Shown here: in pieces, positions 57,229-64,000 of the stretch | Numbering within the stretch: the stretch's first letter is position 1 | Layout: every line of letters starts with the position of its first letter | From: Amycolatopsis albispora | GTDB taxonomy: Bacteria; Actinomycetota; Actinomycetes; Mycobacteriales; Pseudonocardiaceae | Direction: 5' to 3' | Assembly: GCF_003312875.1 (NCBI RefSeq) | Contig: NZ_CP015163.1 | Coordinates: 1,922,001-1,986,000, forward strand | Length of the DNA stretch: 64,000 nt | The notes under the pieces: generated by a model | What the model was told of the DNA's origin: nothing | What the model saw: only the letters and a program-made list of their open reading frames with translations | Database searches by the model: none | Made by a program: the position numbers and the translations under genes

Positions 57229-57322
57229 ACCCGCCGTCCTTAATCGCCGCTACCACTGAGACGTTAACAACGATACCACCGCCGCGAGCGCAGGCAGCGG
57301 TGAACGAGGGGTACCACGAACC

Positions 57323-57354
57323 AAAAAAGCTGGCCGTCTACGCGACGACCAGCT
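57323..57354 (-). terminator. Rho-independent terminator of the orphan CxxC gene
   Basis: On the minus strand an 11-bp stem with one mismatch (57344-57354 and 57328-57338) and a 5-nt loop is followed by six T residues (57328-57323). It lies 85 bp past the stop of the gene at 57439. A classic T-tract terminator is unusual in such GC-rich DNA and marks this gene as a separate unit. Confidence 0.75.
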
Positions 57355-57438
57355 CCGGTGTAGATAATGTGCGTGTCCGAGGGGCGACTTGCACACTAAC
57401 CACACGCCTGAGCCTGCCAGCGTAAGGGCGGCGTCACG

Positions 57439-58059
57439 TCACAGCGCGTAAGGATAGCGTCGGATGTGCGTTTTGCCCTCGACCTCTTCTACGTAATCCC
57501 AGGGTGAGCGGTCGCCGACTTCTGGGTTGCAGGCGACGTTGCCAGCCGCGCCAGTACAGCGAGCACACCATTCCCAGTCACGAACGTGGGACGCTACAAG
57601 GCCTTCGCCGTAGTCGACGTACCGTTCGTTGTCACGGTCGGTGAAGTACTTGGCCCTCACGGATGCGCAACCGAGTCGCGAGCCCCAATGCTTACGGGTT
57701 CCGGTGCCTCCGAATGAGCTGACTACCCTTGGGTCTGGCTGCTGCAGGCAGTAGAGCGCGGCCGTGCCGAACACGTCGGGTGCAACGAAATGGTCTTCAA
57801 GGTCCGATAGTCCACAGCGCTGGCAGATGCGGCGACGTAATAGCTCGTCAGCCAGCGCGATGGCACCTGAGAGTTCGTCATCGTATGGTCTTCCCTCGTA
57901 GCCGGGAACTGGCATTCTGACGAACCCACTCCCGTACGCGTTTGAGGGAAGCCAATCATGATGCTCAGGCGACCACAACAGACGCGTCCCGCCACCATAC
58001 GACTCGTAGACAACTACAGCCCAGAAATCGTCGAGCGACTTCGGTAATATTGCGTTCAC
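57439..58059 (-). CDS. Orphan protein with two CxxC pairs, likely horizontally acquired
   Basis: 206 residues, GTG start, weak ribosome site. Two CxxC pairs, CQRC (79-82) and CARC (165-168), could form a zinc-binding knuckle around an insert. The rest is rich in aromatic and acidic residues, with no recognised domain and no membrane segment. Codon use is clearly less GC-rich at third positions than its neighbours (for example ATA, TTA and AGA-type codons). It carries its own T-tract terminator. It stands next to the Wadjet-like genes, so a role in defence or a cargo gene of the same island is possible. Function unknown. Confidence 0.6.
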   Translation of the reverse strand: MNAILPKSLDDFWAVVVYESYGGGTRLLWSPEHHDWLPSNAYGSGFVRMPVPGYEGRPYDDELSGAIALADELLRRRICQRCGLSDLEDHFVAPDVFGTAALYCLQQPDPRVVSSFGGTGTRKHWGSRLGCASVRAKYFTDRDNERYVDYGEGLVASHVRDWEWCARCTGAAGNVACNPEVGDRSPWDYVEEVEGKTHIRRYPYAL

Positions 58060-58424
58060 TGCGCCATCTTAGAGCTTCGGTGCTCCATCTGGTGTGCGGT
58101 GTTCGAGCCCGATGGCGCGCCGCGCTGATCGACGCGGGTGGCGCGCCCGCCACACTACCGGTCAAGGCGGTTCAGCCTAGGGCTGTCGGGGGGGCACTGC
58201 GGACGTGCCGCTACCCGAGTCCGTCCAGGTCGCAGCGTCGACGCCGGACCCAGGGAAACGAAGTACATCCTTCCTCACCGGCGACCGGTTCCTGGATGCC
58301 GCACTGCTCGACCGCCTGGTGGCCGACGCCGACGCTGCGGTGGGCTCGTGATGGTTCGCACGCAAACCGTCGCGCGGAAGTCATCGCGCAATGACCGTGG
58401 CTGAGAGGGCTGCGCTGCACCGCC
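58060..58424. other. 365-bp region without a credible gene, possibly gene remnant
   Basis: Three frames are open in pieces but none has a good start. One frame (58205-58351) ends with FLTGDRFLDAALLDRLVADADAAVGS before a stop, and another short frame (58391-58438) reads TVAERAALHRLTDH. Both look like C-terminal tails of real proteins. This suggests decayed genes between the orphan protein and the JetD-like gene. No terminator, repeat or RNA was recognised. Confidence 0.35.
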
Positions 58425-59474
58425 TCACCGATCATTGAACCAGTCGGAGAGAGCCGTCGCGGCGAGAACTTCAACCCCGACGTTTTCCTGCACGACCCGT
58501 TCGCCGGACCGGGCAACGGCCAGGCACACGTCGCCCAAAGACTCGTCCAGCCATTCCTGAACCCAAGCGGCTGTGGCGGCGCTCATCCGCAGCGTGCGCC
58601 CACTCGGCCGGCGCTGCCCATACTCGATAGCGAGGCTGTACAACCCCTTCGCCGGCCGAAGTTCCTCGAATCCGAGATCGCGTACGCATTGCCAAGCTGT
58701 TCGGGCGATCCGGAAACCTCCCGCGTCGACGTCACCGAAGTACCAACACTCAAGTGGGCGTTCGCCGCAAGCGGCGAGGGCTCGTAACCTGGTGCGCACC
58801 TGATTTCCCGATCCCCAGATGATTTGGCCGTCGAAGCCCAGCTCTGCCGCACGACGCGACAGCGAGACGTAGGTCGTGTAGTTCTCGACGAGGAGCCAGG
58901 TATCGCTGTCACCGAGGATCCGACGGTTTACCGGCGGCCAGCACTGTTCACACTCCAGCAGATCCAGGGTCAGCCGTCCTGGCCGGAACAAGGGACCGAA
59001 CAGCCAATTCTCGAGGGCTTTGTCGTCACCGGTGATCTCGAGCGACCGTTCCCGAATCGGCACGACCACCCCACGACGGCGGGGCAGCCAGGAGTTCACC
59101 AGCGCGAGACATGATCGCTCCGCGGTACTCCACTCGCCGCGTTCGTCGGCGAGCGCCGCCCAGCCGAGGTCCGCGTGCCAGACGATCGGTGCTGGTTTCT
59201 CCGCCTGCCCCGACGGCGCTCCCCGTCGGGTGACGTACGCGGGCAGCGGTGGATCGGCGCGGCGGTCGGTCCGGGTCTTCGGGAGGTCGATCACCCCCTC
59301 GGCTGCGAGGAACGTGATCGCGGTGAGCACCCGGCGACGCCAGTGCACCGAGACCGCTGCGCTGTGGTCGACCTTCGCCGCGGCCGAGAGGACGACGTCG
59401 AGTGGTACCCGCCGGGGGCCGTATACGCGAACGGTCTCGGCGATCGCGCCGATCAGCGCTGGCTCAGGGATCAC
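58425..59474 (-). CDS. jetD: Wadjet JetD-like nuclease subunit (DUF3322/DUF2220 TOPRIM)
   Basis: 349 residues. The N-terminal arm is followed by a TOPRIM-like fold: LLVENYTTYVSL with Glu197, then a Gly loop GSGNQV (221-226), then WYFGDVDAGGF with Asp248 and Asp250. These match the metal-binding Glu and DxD of JetD proteins, which resemble the Spo11/TopoVI catalytic core. In Wadjet systems JetD cuts closed circular DNA after the SMC complex has extruded it. It is the last gene of the operon, starting with an 11-bp overlap into the SMC-like gene. GTG or ATG choice does not change the domain; the ATG at 59474 is used. Confidence 0.82.
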   Translation of the reverse strand: MIPEPALIGAIAETVRVYGPRRVPLDVVLSAAAKVDHSAAVSVHWRRRVLTAITFLAAEGVIDLPKTRTDRRADPPLPAYVTRRGAPSGQAEKPAPIVWHADLGWAALADERGEWSTAERSCLALVNSWLPRRRGVVVPIRERSLEITGDDKALENWLFGPLFRPGRLTLDLLECEQCWPPVNRRILGDSDTWLLVENYTTYVSLSRRAAELGFDGQIIWGSGNQVRTRLRALAACGERPLECWYFGDVDAGGFRIARTAWQCVRDLGFEELRPAKGLYSLAIEYGQRRPSGRTLRMSAATAAWVQEWLDESLGDVCLAVARSGERVVQENVGVEVLAATALSDWFNDR

Positions 59475-62400
59475 GACGCACCGACGAAACGACGTCGACC
59501 AGCTGGCTCGTGCCGGCGGCGGAGTTGTCGAGGTCGTTCGAAACGTAGGCTCGTCCTGGCCGCGTAGCCGAGGGCCGTTTGTGCATTGCGGCGATCCGCG
59601 GGAACGCGGTCACCGCGCCGAGGTCACCGATCCCGGTCAGGAACACCAGCTGCACGCCGCTCGCTTTCGCCACCCGCCGCTGCAAGTCGAGGAACGGCAG
59701 ATAGTTGGCTTTGCCGAGCGGGTTGTCGAGCGGAACCAGGCCGCCGACCGAGCTGGTGCGGTGACCGGTCCGCTGTTCGGTGCGCAGCCGGGCCATGACA
59801 CAGAAGAGCACCAGCGACGCAGTGAGGTTCTCCCCGCCGGACCACTTGCGCATGTCTTCGACCGCCGTTCGCCCGGTCGGCTGATCCGGAGCGGGCTTGA
59901 GGACCGATGCCCGGAATCCCGCGGTCACGGCGGCTTCGGTCGCCCGCCAGAGCAGTTCGGTCGGGTCGGTCTCGACCTTGCCCGCGCCCACCATCCGGTC
60001 CACCAGTTCGCCGATGCGCAACGCTGCCTGCTCCCGCGTCGGACGTTTCTTGGCGTCGACGGCCAGGAATCGGTAACCCGCCCACGGACCCACGCCCTCC
60101 GGTAGTTCGGACAAGGCCGATGCCCGGCCGAGCAGTCGCAGCGCGTCGTCCACGAGGTCGCCCAGGCGTGACACCACGTTCTGCTTGTGTTCCTGGACCT
60201 GGGTCAGCTGCCGGGTGATGGCCTGCTGCCGGGTCTCCAGGTCGTCGGCGAACTCACCCGCGCGCGCGGCGACGCGTTCATACAAGTGCTCACTGCGGAA
60301 CAGCTCCCTGAGCCGGCGCACCGCCTGGCCGTTCTCGTCTTCGGCCACTGCGGCGAACCGGTCGTCCGCTGCCCAGTTCCGGAGTCGTTCTGCATGTTGA
60401 GACCGATTTCCGAGGAGGCCGTTGTACTCGCTCTCGAGGGCCTCGAATCCCTGCACGAGCCGCTCGGTCTTCGCCCGGATCTCGTCATCGCGGTCCGGGA
60501 CGATCCCTCTCGCGACGTCGGCGGGATCGACGCTCCGGAACAGGTTGGCCTGGTCGAGAAGGACTCCGATCAAGCCCTTCGCGTCATCGGCCGCCCGACC
60601 GGCGTCGTCACGCTCCCGCTCCAGGAATCCCGCAGCAAGCTGCAGGCCGATGGCGAGTTCGTTGGACTCCGCCGCGTGCCGGAGGGCATCACCCCGGTCG
60701 GCCGGTTCCAACACCTGCTCCGTGTGGCGGGTCCGCCCGCGCGGAGTCGCCGTTCGCAACTCGGTCTCGGCCTCTCGCAACTCCGCTTCGGCCGCGCCGA
60801 GCTTGCGTTCGGTCGCGGTTTTCGCGTCACGTACCCGATCCAAGGCTTCCTGGCGAAGCTCGCGATCTTCGGCGACCGTTGTAGCTGAGAGCTGTGCGGC
60901 CCGCGCCCGTACTGGGCTGGCGTGGCGTTCCCACTTTTGCGCGCCGGCGCGAACGGTCTTCTCGGCTTCCGCCTCGGCACGGCGCAGTTCCGCTTCGGGG
61001 AACTGCCGGCGCAGAAGCTCCTTGCTCTCGGCGACGGCCGCCTCCGCGCTCTCCACGCTCTTGTCGGTAAAGATCGAGTGCGCTGGCAGCGTGGCACGGG
61101 TCGCGGTCCAGGTTCGTCTGCTCGACTCGAGTCCGCGACTCTCGTCACGAAAGCGCTCGATGTCGACGTCGGCGGATTCGTAGGTCGCGACAGCAGCCGT
61201 TTCCGCCTCCTTTTCGGCCTCCTGCAACGCAGGGATCGCTTCCATACGGGCGCTGGCCGGATTCACGACCTCCTGTTCCTCGCGTTCGAGGTCTTCGACT
61301 CGCGCCAGCGCGACGCGAAGTTCCGGCAAAGTCTCGCGCAGCCGGGCGTGTTCTTCGACGATTTCCGCGTGTTGCCCGCGCAGCTCGTCGCGGTCGCTGG
61401 TCGCGGCCGACTCCTCGGTCTCAGCATCTCGTGAAGCAGCCTTGGCCGACCTGAGGCGGTTGCGCAGCCCCGTGACGCCGTCGTCCGGGAAGGCTTGCAC
61501 CAGTGCTCGGATTTCAGCGATTTTCGCCGCTTCGCCATCGCGTTGCCGGTTCAGCCGTTCGAGCCGGTCCTGCCCGGCCGTCAGCCGATCCGCCCGACGG
61601 CGGTGTTCGTCGGCTGCGGCGGCCGCGTCGTAGCGCGCCGCCACCGGGCCGAGCACGACCCGTGGCGTCCGCTCCTCTTGGAAGACCCGCGCCGAAGCGA
61701 CCACGACAGCGTCGTCCAGCGTCGTTTCGATCCGCTCGGCTGCTTCGGCGGGATCGCCATAGATGACAACCCCCTCCACGACCTCGGGAAGCTCCGTGAT
61801 CTTCCTCCGCTGTTCTTCAGCAGGCACGTGATTCGCCAGGTAGCTCCACCCGGAGAACGCCGTGACACCTGCCGCGCGCAGCTCGGACAGCACCGCCTCG
61901 ACTGCGGGCCGGGGTGGCAGGAACCCGTCCGCCCGCAGGCCTTCCACCGCGTTCTCGTCTTGGACCAGTCCGGTTCGGACGCCGAGGATCTCGGCCTCGA
62001 TCCCTGCCACTGACCCGGTGAGCAGCGCGACCGCGTCGGCTGCGGATTCGGTCAGATCGACCGAATCCGCCTGAAGCAGCTGACGCAGCCGAGCATCGTC
62101 GCCGATCTGCGCCGCACGCTCCTCCAGGTTCGTCAGCTCGGCCTGCAACCGGTCGTGTACAGCACCTGCTCGTTGACGTTCCTGCCTGGCCGACTCGCAC
62201 CTGTCGTCGGCCGAGACGAGATCACGCGCCAACGACTCGCGTTCGCCCACCAACCGCTCCAGATCCGCTGTGCACACGCGCAGCCGGTGGCGATATCGCT
62301 CGACTGCGGCTTCCAGCCGTTCGGACGGCTCCAGTGTCCCCTTCTCGACGGCAGCGGCCCGGGTGGCCTGGAAGCGGTTGACCCGCTCGGTCAGCTCCCG

Positions 62401-63813
62401 GAGTTCGGAAGCCAGCTCCACATACCGCTCGTGAGCCGTCCGGCGGGCACGTTCGGCGGCTTCCTTCTCCCGCCGTGCGGCCGTCACCGCCGATGCGAGC
62501 GAGGCGAGCCGGAGCCGCGCGCCTTCAGCCGCCGCCTCGAGTGCACCTGCCCACTCCGCCTGTGCCGCTTCGAACAGTTCGATCAACGGCTGAGCTTCTT
62601 CGGCAGCGGCGGCCAAGGCCCCCTGCCGGACAGACAGGGCCGCGATCGCTTCGTCCAAAGCGGCTCGGTCCGCGACCGCCTCCCAGGCAGCCACGTCAAG
62701 GGCGAGCGCGCCTGCTCGTTCGGTCGCGTCGCTGACCTGGTCCCGCGCAGTCCGGACGCGGAACACAGCGGCGAGCCGCGTGTACTCGTCGCGTTGGCGA
62801 CGTGCGGCGTCGGCCTCGGCGCGTTTCTCCTTGAACCGATCGTCCAGGTGCTCCTGCCGCTCACGCTCGAGCCGCTGTAGCGCCGTCGCGCCGTCGGCCT
62901 TGTCCAGCAAGGCTTTCTTGAAGCCCGCGACACGAGCTCGCTCCTCGTCACGGGCCGCCGTCGCCGCTACTACCTTGCGGTGCGCCTCGCCCAGCGCGCC
63001 CACCTTCGGCTGGGCCTCCGCGCAGAACTCCCGCTCGGCCTCGTAGCCGGGCTGCTTCGCGATCTCCTTCTGTGTTTCGGAAAGCAGATCGCGCACGGGC
63101 GCGGTCCGGTTGCGGTCGCTGACGAACCTCAGCAGGTAGCGAACGAACGCCCCCGGCGAGTCGATTCCGTCGAACAACGCCTCGATGCCGCCTTCGGTGG
63201 CGTTGACTTCGGTGAAGTAGCGGAACAGATCCGGGTCGAAGCGCCGCTCGCGGAGCGCTTGGTGCCACTCCGCGATCGTCGAGCTGGCAACCACCACGTT
63301 CACTCCGTGCGCCGCCAGCTCGTTGAGGTGCCTGCGGAAACCGTCCCGGTCGCAGCGACCGGAGGTCCGGAAGGTGAACGGCAGATCGTCGAGGGCGGAC
63401 CCCTCGACCGCCGGCTCGGGGTGCACGCACCACCAGGTCCGTTTGAGGTTCTCCTTGCCCGCGGCGTTGTAGTCGCGCGGTCGCTGCCGCCCGTCCCATT
63501 CGTAGATCGCACCGGTCAGCAGGACACGTCCTTCGGAATCGGCCCACTCGGCGACGACGTGCGCGGTGTCGTGGCTTTGGACCAGATCCTCAAGCGTCCG
63601 TTTCTTCGTCCGAGTGGCGAGGAAGTCACGGCGGTCGGGCAGGATCAGCGCCAGCAACAAGGACAGCATCGTAGTTTTGCCGGCGCCGTTGCGCAGCCAC
63701 ACGATGCTATCCGCGGGCGCACCGTCGGCGTCGGTCAAGTCGACGAGCAGATCCGAGAACCGGTTGTCGGGCACGCCGATCGAGTCCAGGTAGAACCGGC
63801 GCAGGCGGTACAT
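59464..63813 (-). CDS. jetC: Large SMC-like coiled-coil ATPase, JetC-like
   Basis: 1449 residues. The N-terminal head carries WLRNGAGKTTML (Lys46). Long Glu/Arg/Ala-rich coiled coils with a central hinge-like globule (about 610-770) follow. The C-terminal head has signature KWSGGE (1325-1328) and LVPLDNPLGKAN with Asp1363. This head-coil-hinge-coil-head plan is that of SMC/MukB/JetC proteins. Two details are odd: Leu replaces the first P-loop Gly, and Asn-Pro follows the Walker B Asp where Glu is usual. The ATG follows directly on the stop of the upstream gene, and its end overlaps jetD. The JetC role rests on architecture plus the adjacent jetD. Confidence 0.78.
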   Translation of the reverse strand: MYRLRRFYLDSIGVPDNRFSDLLVDLTDADGAPADSIVWLRNGAGKTTMLSLLLALILPDRRDFLATRTKKRTLEDLVQSHDTAHVVAEWADSEGRVLLTGAIYEWDGRQRPRDYNAAGKENLKRTWWCVHPEPAVEGSALDDLPFTFRTSGRCDRDGFRRHLNELAAHGVNVVVASSTIAEWHQALRERRFDPDLFRYFTEVNATEGGIEALFDGIDSPGAFVRYLLRFVSDRNRTAPVRDLLSETQKEIAKQPGYEAEREFCAEAQPKVGALGEAHRKVVAATAARDEERARVAGFKKALLDKADGATALQRLERERQEHLDDRFKEKRAEADAARRQRDEYTRLAAVFRVRTARDQVSDATERAGALALDVAAWEAVADRAALDEAIAALSVRQGALAAAAEEAQPLIELFEAAQAEWAGALEAAAEGARLRLASLASAVTAARREKEAAERARRTAHERYVELASELRELTERVNRFQATRAAAVEKGTLEPSERLEAAVERYRHRLRVCTADLERLVGERESLARDLVSADDRCESARQERQRAGAVHDRLQAELTNLEERAAQIGDDARLRQLLQADSVDLTESAADAVALLTGSVAGIEAEILGVRTGLVQDENAVEGLRADGFLPPRPAVEAVLSELRAAGVTAFSGWSYLANHVPAEEQRRKITELPEVVEGVVIYGDPAEAAERIETTLDDAVVVASARVFQEERTPRVVLGPVAARYDAAAAADEHRRRADRLTAGQDRLERLNRQRDGEAAKIAEIRALVQAFPDDGVTGLRNRLRSAKAASRDAETEESAATSDRDELRGQHAEIVEEHARLRETLPELRVALARVEDLEREEQEVVNPASARMEAIPALQEAEKEAETAAVATYESADVDIERFRDESRGLESSRRTWTATRATLPAHSIFTDKSVESAEAAVAESKELLRRQFPEAELRRAEAEAEKTVRAGAQKWERHASPVRARAAQLSATTVAEDRELRQEALDRVRDAKTATERKLGAAEAELREAETELRTATPRGRTRHTEQVLEPADRGDALRHAAESNELAIGLQLAAGFLERERDDAGRAADDAKGLIGVLLDQANLFRSVDPADVARGIVPDRDDEIRAKTERLVQGFEALESEYNGLLGNRSQHAERLRNWAADDRFAAVAEDENGQAVRRLRELFRSEHLYERVAARAGEFADDLETRQQAITRQLTQVQEHKQNVVSRLGDLVDDALRLLGRASALSELPEGVGPWAGYRFLAVDAKKRPTREQAALRIGELVDRMVGAGKVETDPTELLWRATEAAVTAGFRASVLKPAPDQPTGRTAVEDMRKWSGGENLTASLVLFCVMARLRTEQRTGHRTSSVGGLVPLDNPLGKANYLPFLDLQRRVAKASGVQLVFLTGIGDLGAVTAFPRIAAMHKRPSATRPGRAYVSNDLDNSAAGTSQLVDVVSSVRRDP

Positions 63814-64000
63814 CTAGTCACGCTCCTCTTCCGCCTGCCGCGCTTCGGCGAACACGGCGTACACGGCGTCCTCGGTCACTTCGGCCAGGCCGATCCGGAA
63901 CCGATCGTTGAGTTGGTAGGCCTCACCGCGCTCGTCGTCGAGTGCCGGCTCGCGCCGAGCACGGCCCTTGTCGACGAGGTACTGCAGGAGCGCGTGGACG
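63814..64000 (-). CDS. JetB-like accessory subunit, C-terminal fragment cut by window edge
   Basis: Only the last 61 codons are visible, ending in TAG directly before the SMC-like ATG (zero spacing). The fragment reads HALLQYLVDKGRAR, then YQLNDRFRIGLAEVTE, and ends with an acidic helix AEARQAEEERD. That resembles the winged-helix C-terminus of MukE/ScpB/JetB-type partners. Operon position before jetC agrees with the jetA-jetB-jetC-jetD order. The identification is tentative since most of the gene lies outside. Confidence 0.5.
   Translation of the reverse strand, partial: VHALLQYLVDKGRARREPALDDERGEAYQLNDRFRIGLAEVTEDAVYAVFAEARQAEEERD

Follow-up and report, generated by a model that had tools for sequence, protein, structure and literature searches.

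A predicted type III Wadjet operon on a small acquired island in Amycolatopsis albispora

Introduction

Three types of Wadjet, I to III, have been described, and in type I the JetABC motor is made of kleisin, KITE, and structural maintenance of chromosomes (SMC) subunits and is accompanied by JetD, a TOPRIM nuclease (PMC10586767). According to the same paper, type I cleaves circular DNA only, cleavage requires ATP and a working JetC ATPase, and linear plasmids and those over about 100 kb escape Wadjet. Wadjet is reported from 42% of actinobacterial genomes (PMC10482375). Here we describe a Wadjet operon, jetABCD, at the right edge of a 64,000-nucleotide stretch of the Amycolatopsis albispora genome (hereafter the window; contig NZ_CP015163.1, G000:C1:1922001-1986000 in our coordinates), a genome of 9.12 Mb in a single contig. 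The operon falls into type III, a class reportedly named by Doron et al. in 2018.

We consider it about 93% likely that this locus encodes a full and undamaged type III Wadjet that arrived on a small island. The system is an ordinary Wadjet of a known class, and nothing separates the operon from type III except a weak JetB score.

Results

The operon matches the type III models

The operon reads toward the left of the window and runs past its right edge. The continuation was taken from the same genome (locus L009, where the window position equals the L009 position plus 54000). The four genes are as follows.

58425 to 59474, minus strand: jetD (type III), predicted TOPRIM nuclease, 349 aa (PADLOC JetD3, Pfam JetD_C).
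59464 to 63813, minus strand: jetC (type III), predicted SMC ATPase, 1449 aa (PADLOC JetC3, translated motifs).
63814 to 64551, minus strand, with the 3' end in the window at 63814 to 64000: jetB (type III), predicted KITE subunit, 245 aa (PADLOC JetB3, position).
64548 to 66125 (L009 10548-12125), minus strand, outside the window: jetA (type III), 525 aa (PADLOC JetA3).

All four frames are intact and co-directional. The genes are tightly joined, with a 4-bp overlap between jetA and jetB, jetB and jetC abutting at 63813/63814, and an 11-bp overlap between jetC and jetD. JetC matched the PADLOC model JetC3 at 1401.1 bits (E = 0) with residues 1-1449 covered, JetA matched JetA3 at 404.9 bits, and JetD matched JetD3 at 253.3 bits (E = 1.1e-75), scores that exclude a chance match. 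JetB lies in the expected place between JetA and JetC and resembles the JetB open reading frames (ORFs) of other type III operons. For JetD, an alignment of eight JetD3 sequences shows no variation at E197, N198, G247, D248, and D250, and we take E197, D248, and D250 to be its catalytic acidic residues. Wherever our local profile detected JetD in type III loci, jetD came next after jetC and was read in the same direction. JetD also matched Pfam JetD_C (PF09983) at 27.3 bits against a cut-off of 22, the sole Pfam family over its cut-off in the operon; neither JetD nor JetC matched an NCBIfam family over cut-off.

An earlier note, made from the window's sequence alone, had proposed a Wadjet-like operon here, consisting of a TOPRIM protein with VEN and GDVD motifs, a 1449-residue SMC-like protein, and the tail of a third gene, in the order jetB-jetC-jetD. 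PADLOC type III models for all four genes bear this out: both motifs are present in JetD, itself an intact ORF of 349 aa, the SMC-like protein is an intact ORF (59464-63813) of the JetC3 family, and the tail is the 3' end of jetB, abutting jetC. The search with these models is the one that the note proposed for the window proteins and the genes beyond the edge; JetB matched weakly. The note had left the subtype unclear and suspected a rarer or undescribed variant. That part falls away, as the best models are JetA3, JetB3, JetC3, and JetD3, and their fit rules out a divergent or unknown Wadjet subtype. The SMC protein is indeed unlike type I JetC, as the note observed, because type III JetC belongs to a different, longer family; it does not amount to a new variant. 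Upstream, where the note looked for DUF3375 and DUF4194 or equivalents, neither Pfam family gave a match over cut-off and the best PADLOC models were of type III, so that the two genes are the type III equivalents, JetB weakly.

The note had also raised a better match of the SMC protein to SbcC. A DNA repair cluster of the SbcC/Rad50 or SMC type in place of a Wadjet is exceedingly improbable: what speaks for it is a weak match in the coiled coil to SMC_prok_B, the best-scoring NCBIfam model, which reached 17.7 bits where the cut-off is 567, and against it stand the 1401-bit JetC3 match from end to end and the adjoining JetA3 and JetD3. No SbcC or Rad50 match was found, and an SbcC/Rad50 or SMC repair protein was rejected as a candidate, with no curated family over its cut-off. 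Among the 13 AAA_23 matches listed in a genome scan (150 of 234 candidates scored), none fell at jetC.

Several results weigh against the assignment to a complete type III Wadjet. The JetB3 match is weak (18.3 bits, E = 2.9e-4), and JetA, JetB, and JetC have no Pfam family over cut-off, so the assignment of the kleisin and KITE roles comes from the PADLOC names and the order of the genes. Searched by sequence against solved structures, JetD gave two chance matches only (E 0.22 and 0.74) and JetC gave none at E up to 1. An AlphaFold model of JetD built without an alignment had a mean predicted local distance difference test score (pLDDT) of 38.9 and was not used in any fold search.

The operon lies on a small island

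A short-chain dehydrogenase gene on the left side and an NmrA-like gene on the right side of the operon adjoin each other in three of the 80 genomes of the genus (G452, G448, and G421). The left flank served as query to find these relatives, and L009 was then compared by blastn with L150, L151, and L152. Three further features of the window follow from these and related comparisons.

57240 to 64000, no strand: left part of the island, which as a whole spans about 57240-67145 (9.9 kb) (blastn against three relatives).
58418 to 64000, no strand: left part of the cassette common with genome G456, which as a whole spans 58418-66184 (blastn, 88% DNA identity).
57316 to 57394, no strand: inverted 79-bp copy of the tRNA-Leu(GAG) 3' end and of the sequence downstream of it in G421 (92% match to L152 13956-14034).

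The flank matches are separated by only 90 bp in G452, 94 bp in G448, and 111 bp in G421; in G452, for example, L009 positions 3239 and 13146 correspond to L150 positions 3937 and 4028. With the flanks adjoining in these relatives, the insert comes to about 9.9 kb (57240-67145) and holds little besides the operon. Two ORFs flank the operon inside the island, of 206 aa (57439-58059) and 131 aa (L009 12283-12678), and neither had a PADLOC or Pfam match.

Genome G456 carries a close relative of the operon, with identities of 88% for JetC, 96% for JetB, 95% for JetA, and 81% for JetD. At E up to 1e-20, blastn against its locus (L128) gave DNA similarity over exactly L009 4418-12184, the operon alone, with one end shortly beyond the stop codon of jetD and the other 59 bp ahead of jetA; the flanks of the operon had no similarity in the 19.9 kb fetched from G456 in that search. 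An island missing from three relatives, together with an operon that alone is common with G456, is as expected of a defence cassette.

The segment of G421 that matches the inverted copy at the island's left end (L152 13956-14034) overlaps a tRNA-Leu gene (L152 14013-14097). Beyond the tRNA-Leu of the window genome (L009 17186-17270), the DNA differs from G421 and carries a vsr-like gene and an IS21-type element. The tRNA-Leu copy hints at tRNA-linked integration or rearrangement. The Vsr-like DNA mismatch endonuclease gene lies at L009 17392-17913, about 5 kb beyond jetA, and the IstB gene of the IS21-type element at L009 18039-18848, about 6 kb beyond it.

Elsewhere, the only match of the scan of genome contigs was Amycolatopsis acidicola (L040, NZ_VMNW02000008.1), with related jetD, jetC, and jetB at 73% DNA identity. 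In L040, jetA was not detected, and jetB and jetC are each spread across two frames; the operon looks decayed, or draft-assembly errors could account for this. Within the window genome, a short JetD_C fragment (G000:C1:5207178-5207507, L098; 122 bits, 104-aa ORF) had no long jet-like neighbour in the 3.3 kb read, and it looks like a remnant of another Wadjet.

Proposed mechanism and plasmid records

Most likely, by analogy with type I, JetA (kleisin) and JetB (KITE) would tie two JetC dimers into a motor that extrudes DNA loops. On a small circular plasmid, the motor would exhaust the available DNA and trigger JetD, whose TOPRIM domain would then cut the circle. Subunit roles, loop extrusion, circle sensing, and cleavage are thus all transferred from published type I work; we carry them over to type III because of family membership and the conserved JetD residues.

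Relatives of JetC were found in nine records of a plasmid collection, and topology was seen for eight. Four are circular, each of at least 132.6 kb, and four are linear, each of at least 77 kb. These topologies are in line with a sparing of linear and large DNA, eight records being too few for a test. One of these, a 4.9-Mb Escherichia coli entry, has the appearance of a chromosome; the copy in Salmonella is split.

Type III-like JetC proteins share an asparagine in Walker B

ATPases of the canonical ATP-binding cassette (ABC) and SMC kind have a Walker A motif of the form GxxGxGK[ST] and a Walker B motif with a catalytic Glu that is thought essential for ATP hydrolysis. In the window JetC, Walker A reads LRNGAGKT, the signature SGGEN, and Walker B VPLDNPLG. 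Its Walker A thus keeps the Lys and Thr and is missing the first Gly, and its Walker B has Asn at the catalytic Glu position. To collect type III-like JetC proteins, we searched 152 loci with a profile made from the final 330 residues, which gave 94 matches (E up to 1e-20) and 77 distinct C-termini. All 77 share the Walker B D-N-P, with Asn directly after the Walker B Asp (77/77). Because the 27 sequences that went into this profile all carry Asn, it could have overlooked a Glu form that is strongly diverged. The set is mostly actinobacterial, with four sequences from Pseudomonadota plasmid-collection records, and it did not reach Bacillota type III JetC. Three more plasmid searches, with the JetC of E. 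coli, Microvirga, and Polaromonas, returned nine, eight, and nine records and added no genus name to the seven of the first search.

Set against this, type I JetC from the same phylum had Glu in Walker B in 4/4 sequences, and type II JetC had Glu in five of six and Asp in the sixth. In hhalign comparisons, the type III Asn falls on the type I Glu column (E = 0.00024, with a probability of only 44%) and on the type II Glu column (E = 0.044, probability 1%, very weak). The spacing from the signature to the Walker B Asp agrees across types, ranging from 33 to 39 residues in type III, from 36 to 38 in type I, and from 34 to 35 in type II (5/6; the sixth had no usable spacing). DndD, sought as a further Walker B comparison, had no match over its family cut-off in 149 genomes. 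The first Gly of Walker A was absent in 57/57 JetC3 ORFs that matched the motif pattern; 15 further JetC3 ORFs did not match it because they are truncated, mis-trimmed, or more diverged. Two jetD-bearing JetC3 proteins (L032/L044 and L121) have the Walker A LQNGGGKG, without the usual Ser or Thr after the Lys.

Neither head motif has its textbook form, which bears on how type III JetC handles ATP. In related motors, a C. glutamicum MksB E1042Q mutant was inactive (PMC10123090), and MukB E1407Q abolished DNA loading (PMC7617805). By analogy with these Glu-to-Gln mutants, the Walker B Asn would count as evidence against ordinary hydrolysis-driven extrusion, and to that extent also against reading the locus as a working Wadjet of the familiar kind. 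In the portions of the literature available to us, nothing was found on the Walker B residue or on ATP hydrolysis of type III JetC. Type III JetC most likely retains ATP hydrolysis, at a slow rate or by means of a different base.

Another explanation is that this type III Wadjet does without repeated ATP hydrolysis, in that JetC would be an ATP-binding clamp or a slow switch, natively "EQ-like", that keeps hold of the DNA and licenses JetD once per circle. The uniform Asn against the Glu or Asp of types I and II, its place on their Glu columns (more so for type I than for the very weak type II alignment), and the missing Walker A Gly in every pattern-matching ORF, the 15 unmatched ones aside, all argue in this direction. 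JetC is, moreover, expected to form a homodimer, so that no canonical ATP site would remain, and Lamassu LmuB generally has Gln for Glu at the same place (PMC10586767). Type I cleavage, however, requires a working JetC ATPase (PMC10586767), another residue could activate the water, and these comparisons come from a sample without Bacillota type III JetC and from available literature in which no type III biochemistry was found. On this evidence we consider the explanation unlikely, at clearly less than even odds, and favor a type III Wadjet that hydrolyses ATP.

The genome has a second, jetD-less jetABC, and jetD-less JetC relatives are near-universal in the genus

The same genome carries a second jetABC, which we call the core copy, with jetC at G000:C1:1010163-1014539 and the operon at about 3717-10609 of L041 (G000:C1:1004000-1023000). 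It matched JetA3 at 705.6 bits and JetC3 at 1981.8 bits, and its Walker B again reads D-N-P. Its JetB had only a DpdE match (E = 0.0011) and left the JetB3 models unmatched, and no JetD3-like ORF was found within the 19 kb read. The core JetC and the window JetC are 34.5% identical over 368 aligned residues. The core jetABC stands between whiA and gap, with other genes also between them, and a GPP34-family gene lies just downstream. Seven further core loci were fetched, and gap was present in 7/7 and whiA in 3/7. The jetA and jetB genes of core copies were examined in the fetched loci only.

Across the genus, every genome had a JetC3 match (80/80), and in 76 of these 80 an intact JetC3 (at least 700 bits) lacked a JetD3 (at least 170 bits) within 1 kb. 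The jetD-less JetC3 is in pieces in three more genomes, and G438 has solely a jetD-paired JetC3. JetD3 at 170 bits or more gave 18 matches in 17 genomes of the genus, of which 17 lie within 1 kb of a JetC3, the exception being in G451. In a second genus, that of G023 (probably Streptomyces), 147 of 150 genomes had a JetC3 match and only 11 a JetD3 match (at least 150 bits). Our local JetD profile found no JetD in 23 loci of the first genus (own copy included) or in 11 of the second; one of these 11, L019, ends 66 bp after jetC and so says nothing on JetD.

A JetC tree of 52 hand-chosen rows, 32 jetD-bearing and 20 jetD-less, needs three changes of jetD state. The jetD-less rows form one clade per genus, parted by jetD-bearing rows, and G438, which is jetD-bearing and whose fetched 12.5 kb contains no gap gene, is nested in the jetD-less clade of the first genus. 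The simplest reading is two losses and one regain of jetD. As this is a quick tree with long branches and warnings, it leaves the sequence of losses and regains uncertain. The jetD-less copies look like a type III-derived condensin that is free of the nuclease and has been domesticated. P. aeruginosa MksBEF has already been proposed as a housekeeping condensin derived from Wadjet through JetD loss (PMC10586767), and several members of the Wadjet group lack MksG/JetD (PMC7617805). JetD-less type III operons in these two genera were not found in the available parts of the literature; they may stand in the PMC7617805 supplement, which lists JetD-less operons of the Wadjet group.

Given a jetD-less relative that is near-universal in this genus, and probably in a second one, the window JetABC could itself be a condensin mainly serving the chromosome, with JetD incidental. 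We consider this very improbable, as the window copy sits on an island missing from three relatives, its jetD is intact, and JetC3 at the strength of the window copy (over 1300 bits) occurs in only eight of 80 genomes. For the window operon, the type III Wadjet remains our reading.

Taken together, the Walker motifs and the core copies allow a wider proposal. The whole type III branch would be built on an SMC homodimer without the catalytic Glu in either site, sensing and marking circles by ATP binding or by slow, unusual hydrolysis, and not by the processive extrusion shown for type I; in two or more large genera of actinobacteria, its JetD-less offshoot would by now be a fixed condensin of the chromosome. 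We put this forward tentatively and regard it as doubtful.

Discussion

As a locus, the operon is one more type III Wadjet in a phylum already rich in Wadjet systems. Most worth bench work are the Walker B Asn across type III-like JetC proteins and the near-universal jetD-less copies. The type I and type II JetC proteins examined keep an acid at the catalytic place, and every type III-like C-terminus examined has Asn. If type III still extrudes DNA, it would be a natural exception to the rule that SMC motors need a catalytic Glu; if it does not, there would be two ways of sensing small circles. With the jetD-less core copy, one could test how a defence machine turns into a housekeeping condensin.

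Among known systems, the window operon is most like type III Wadjet, with which it agrees in having all four genes, in the order A-B-C-D, and in gene lengths, profile scores, and the Walker B D-N-P. With type I Wadjet (E. coli GF4-3, P. aeruginosa PA14, and C. glutamicum MksBEFG) it shares the four-gene plan, the pairing of an SMC protein with a TOPRIM nuclease, and the JetD_C domain. It differs from type I in the length of JetC (1449 aa against 1112 positions of the type I model), in lacking DUF3375 (JetA) and DUF4194 (JetB), in the Asn in place of Glu in Walker B, and in an altered Walker A. The core jetABC copy belongs to the type III branch and has the Asn, unlike MukBEF, in which MukB keeps the Walker B Glu (E1407; PMC7617805). 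A parallel is Lamassu LmuB, an SMC-like defence ATPase in which the catalytic Glu has also been lost naturally (PMC10586767), though it belongs to a different family with different partners and has Gln where type III JetC has Asn.

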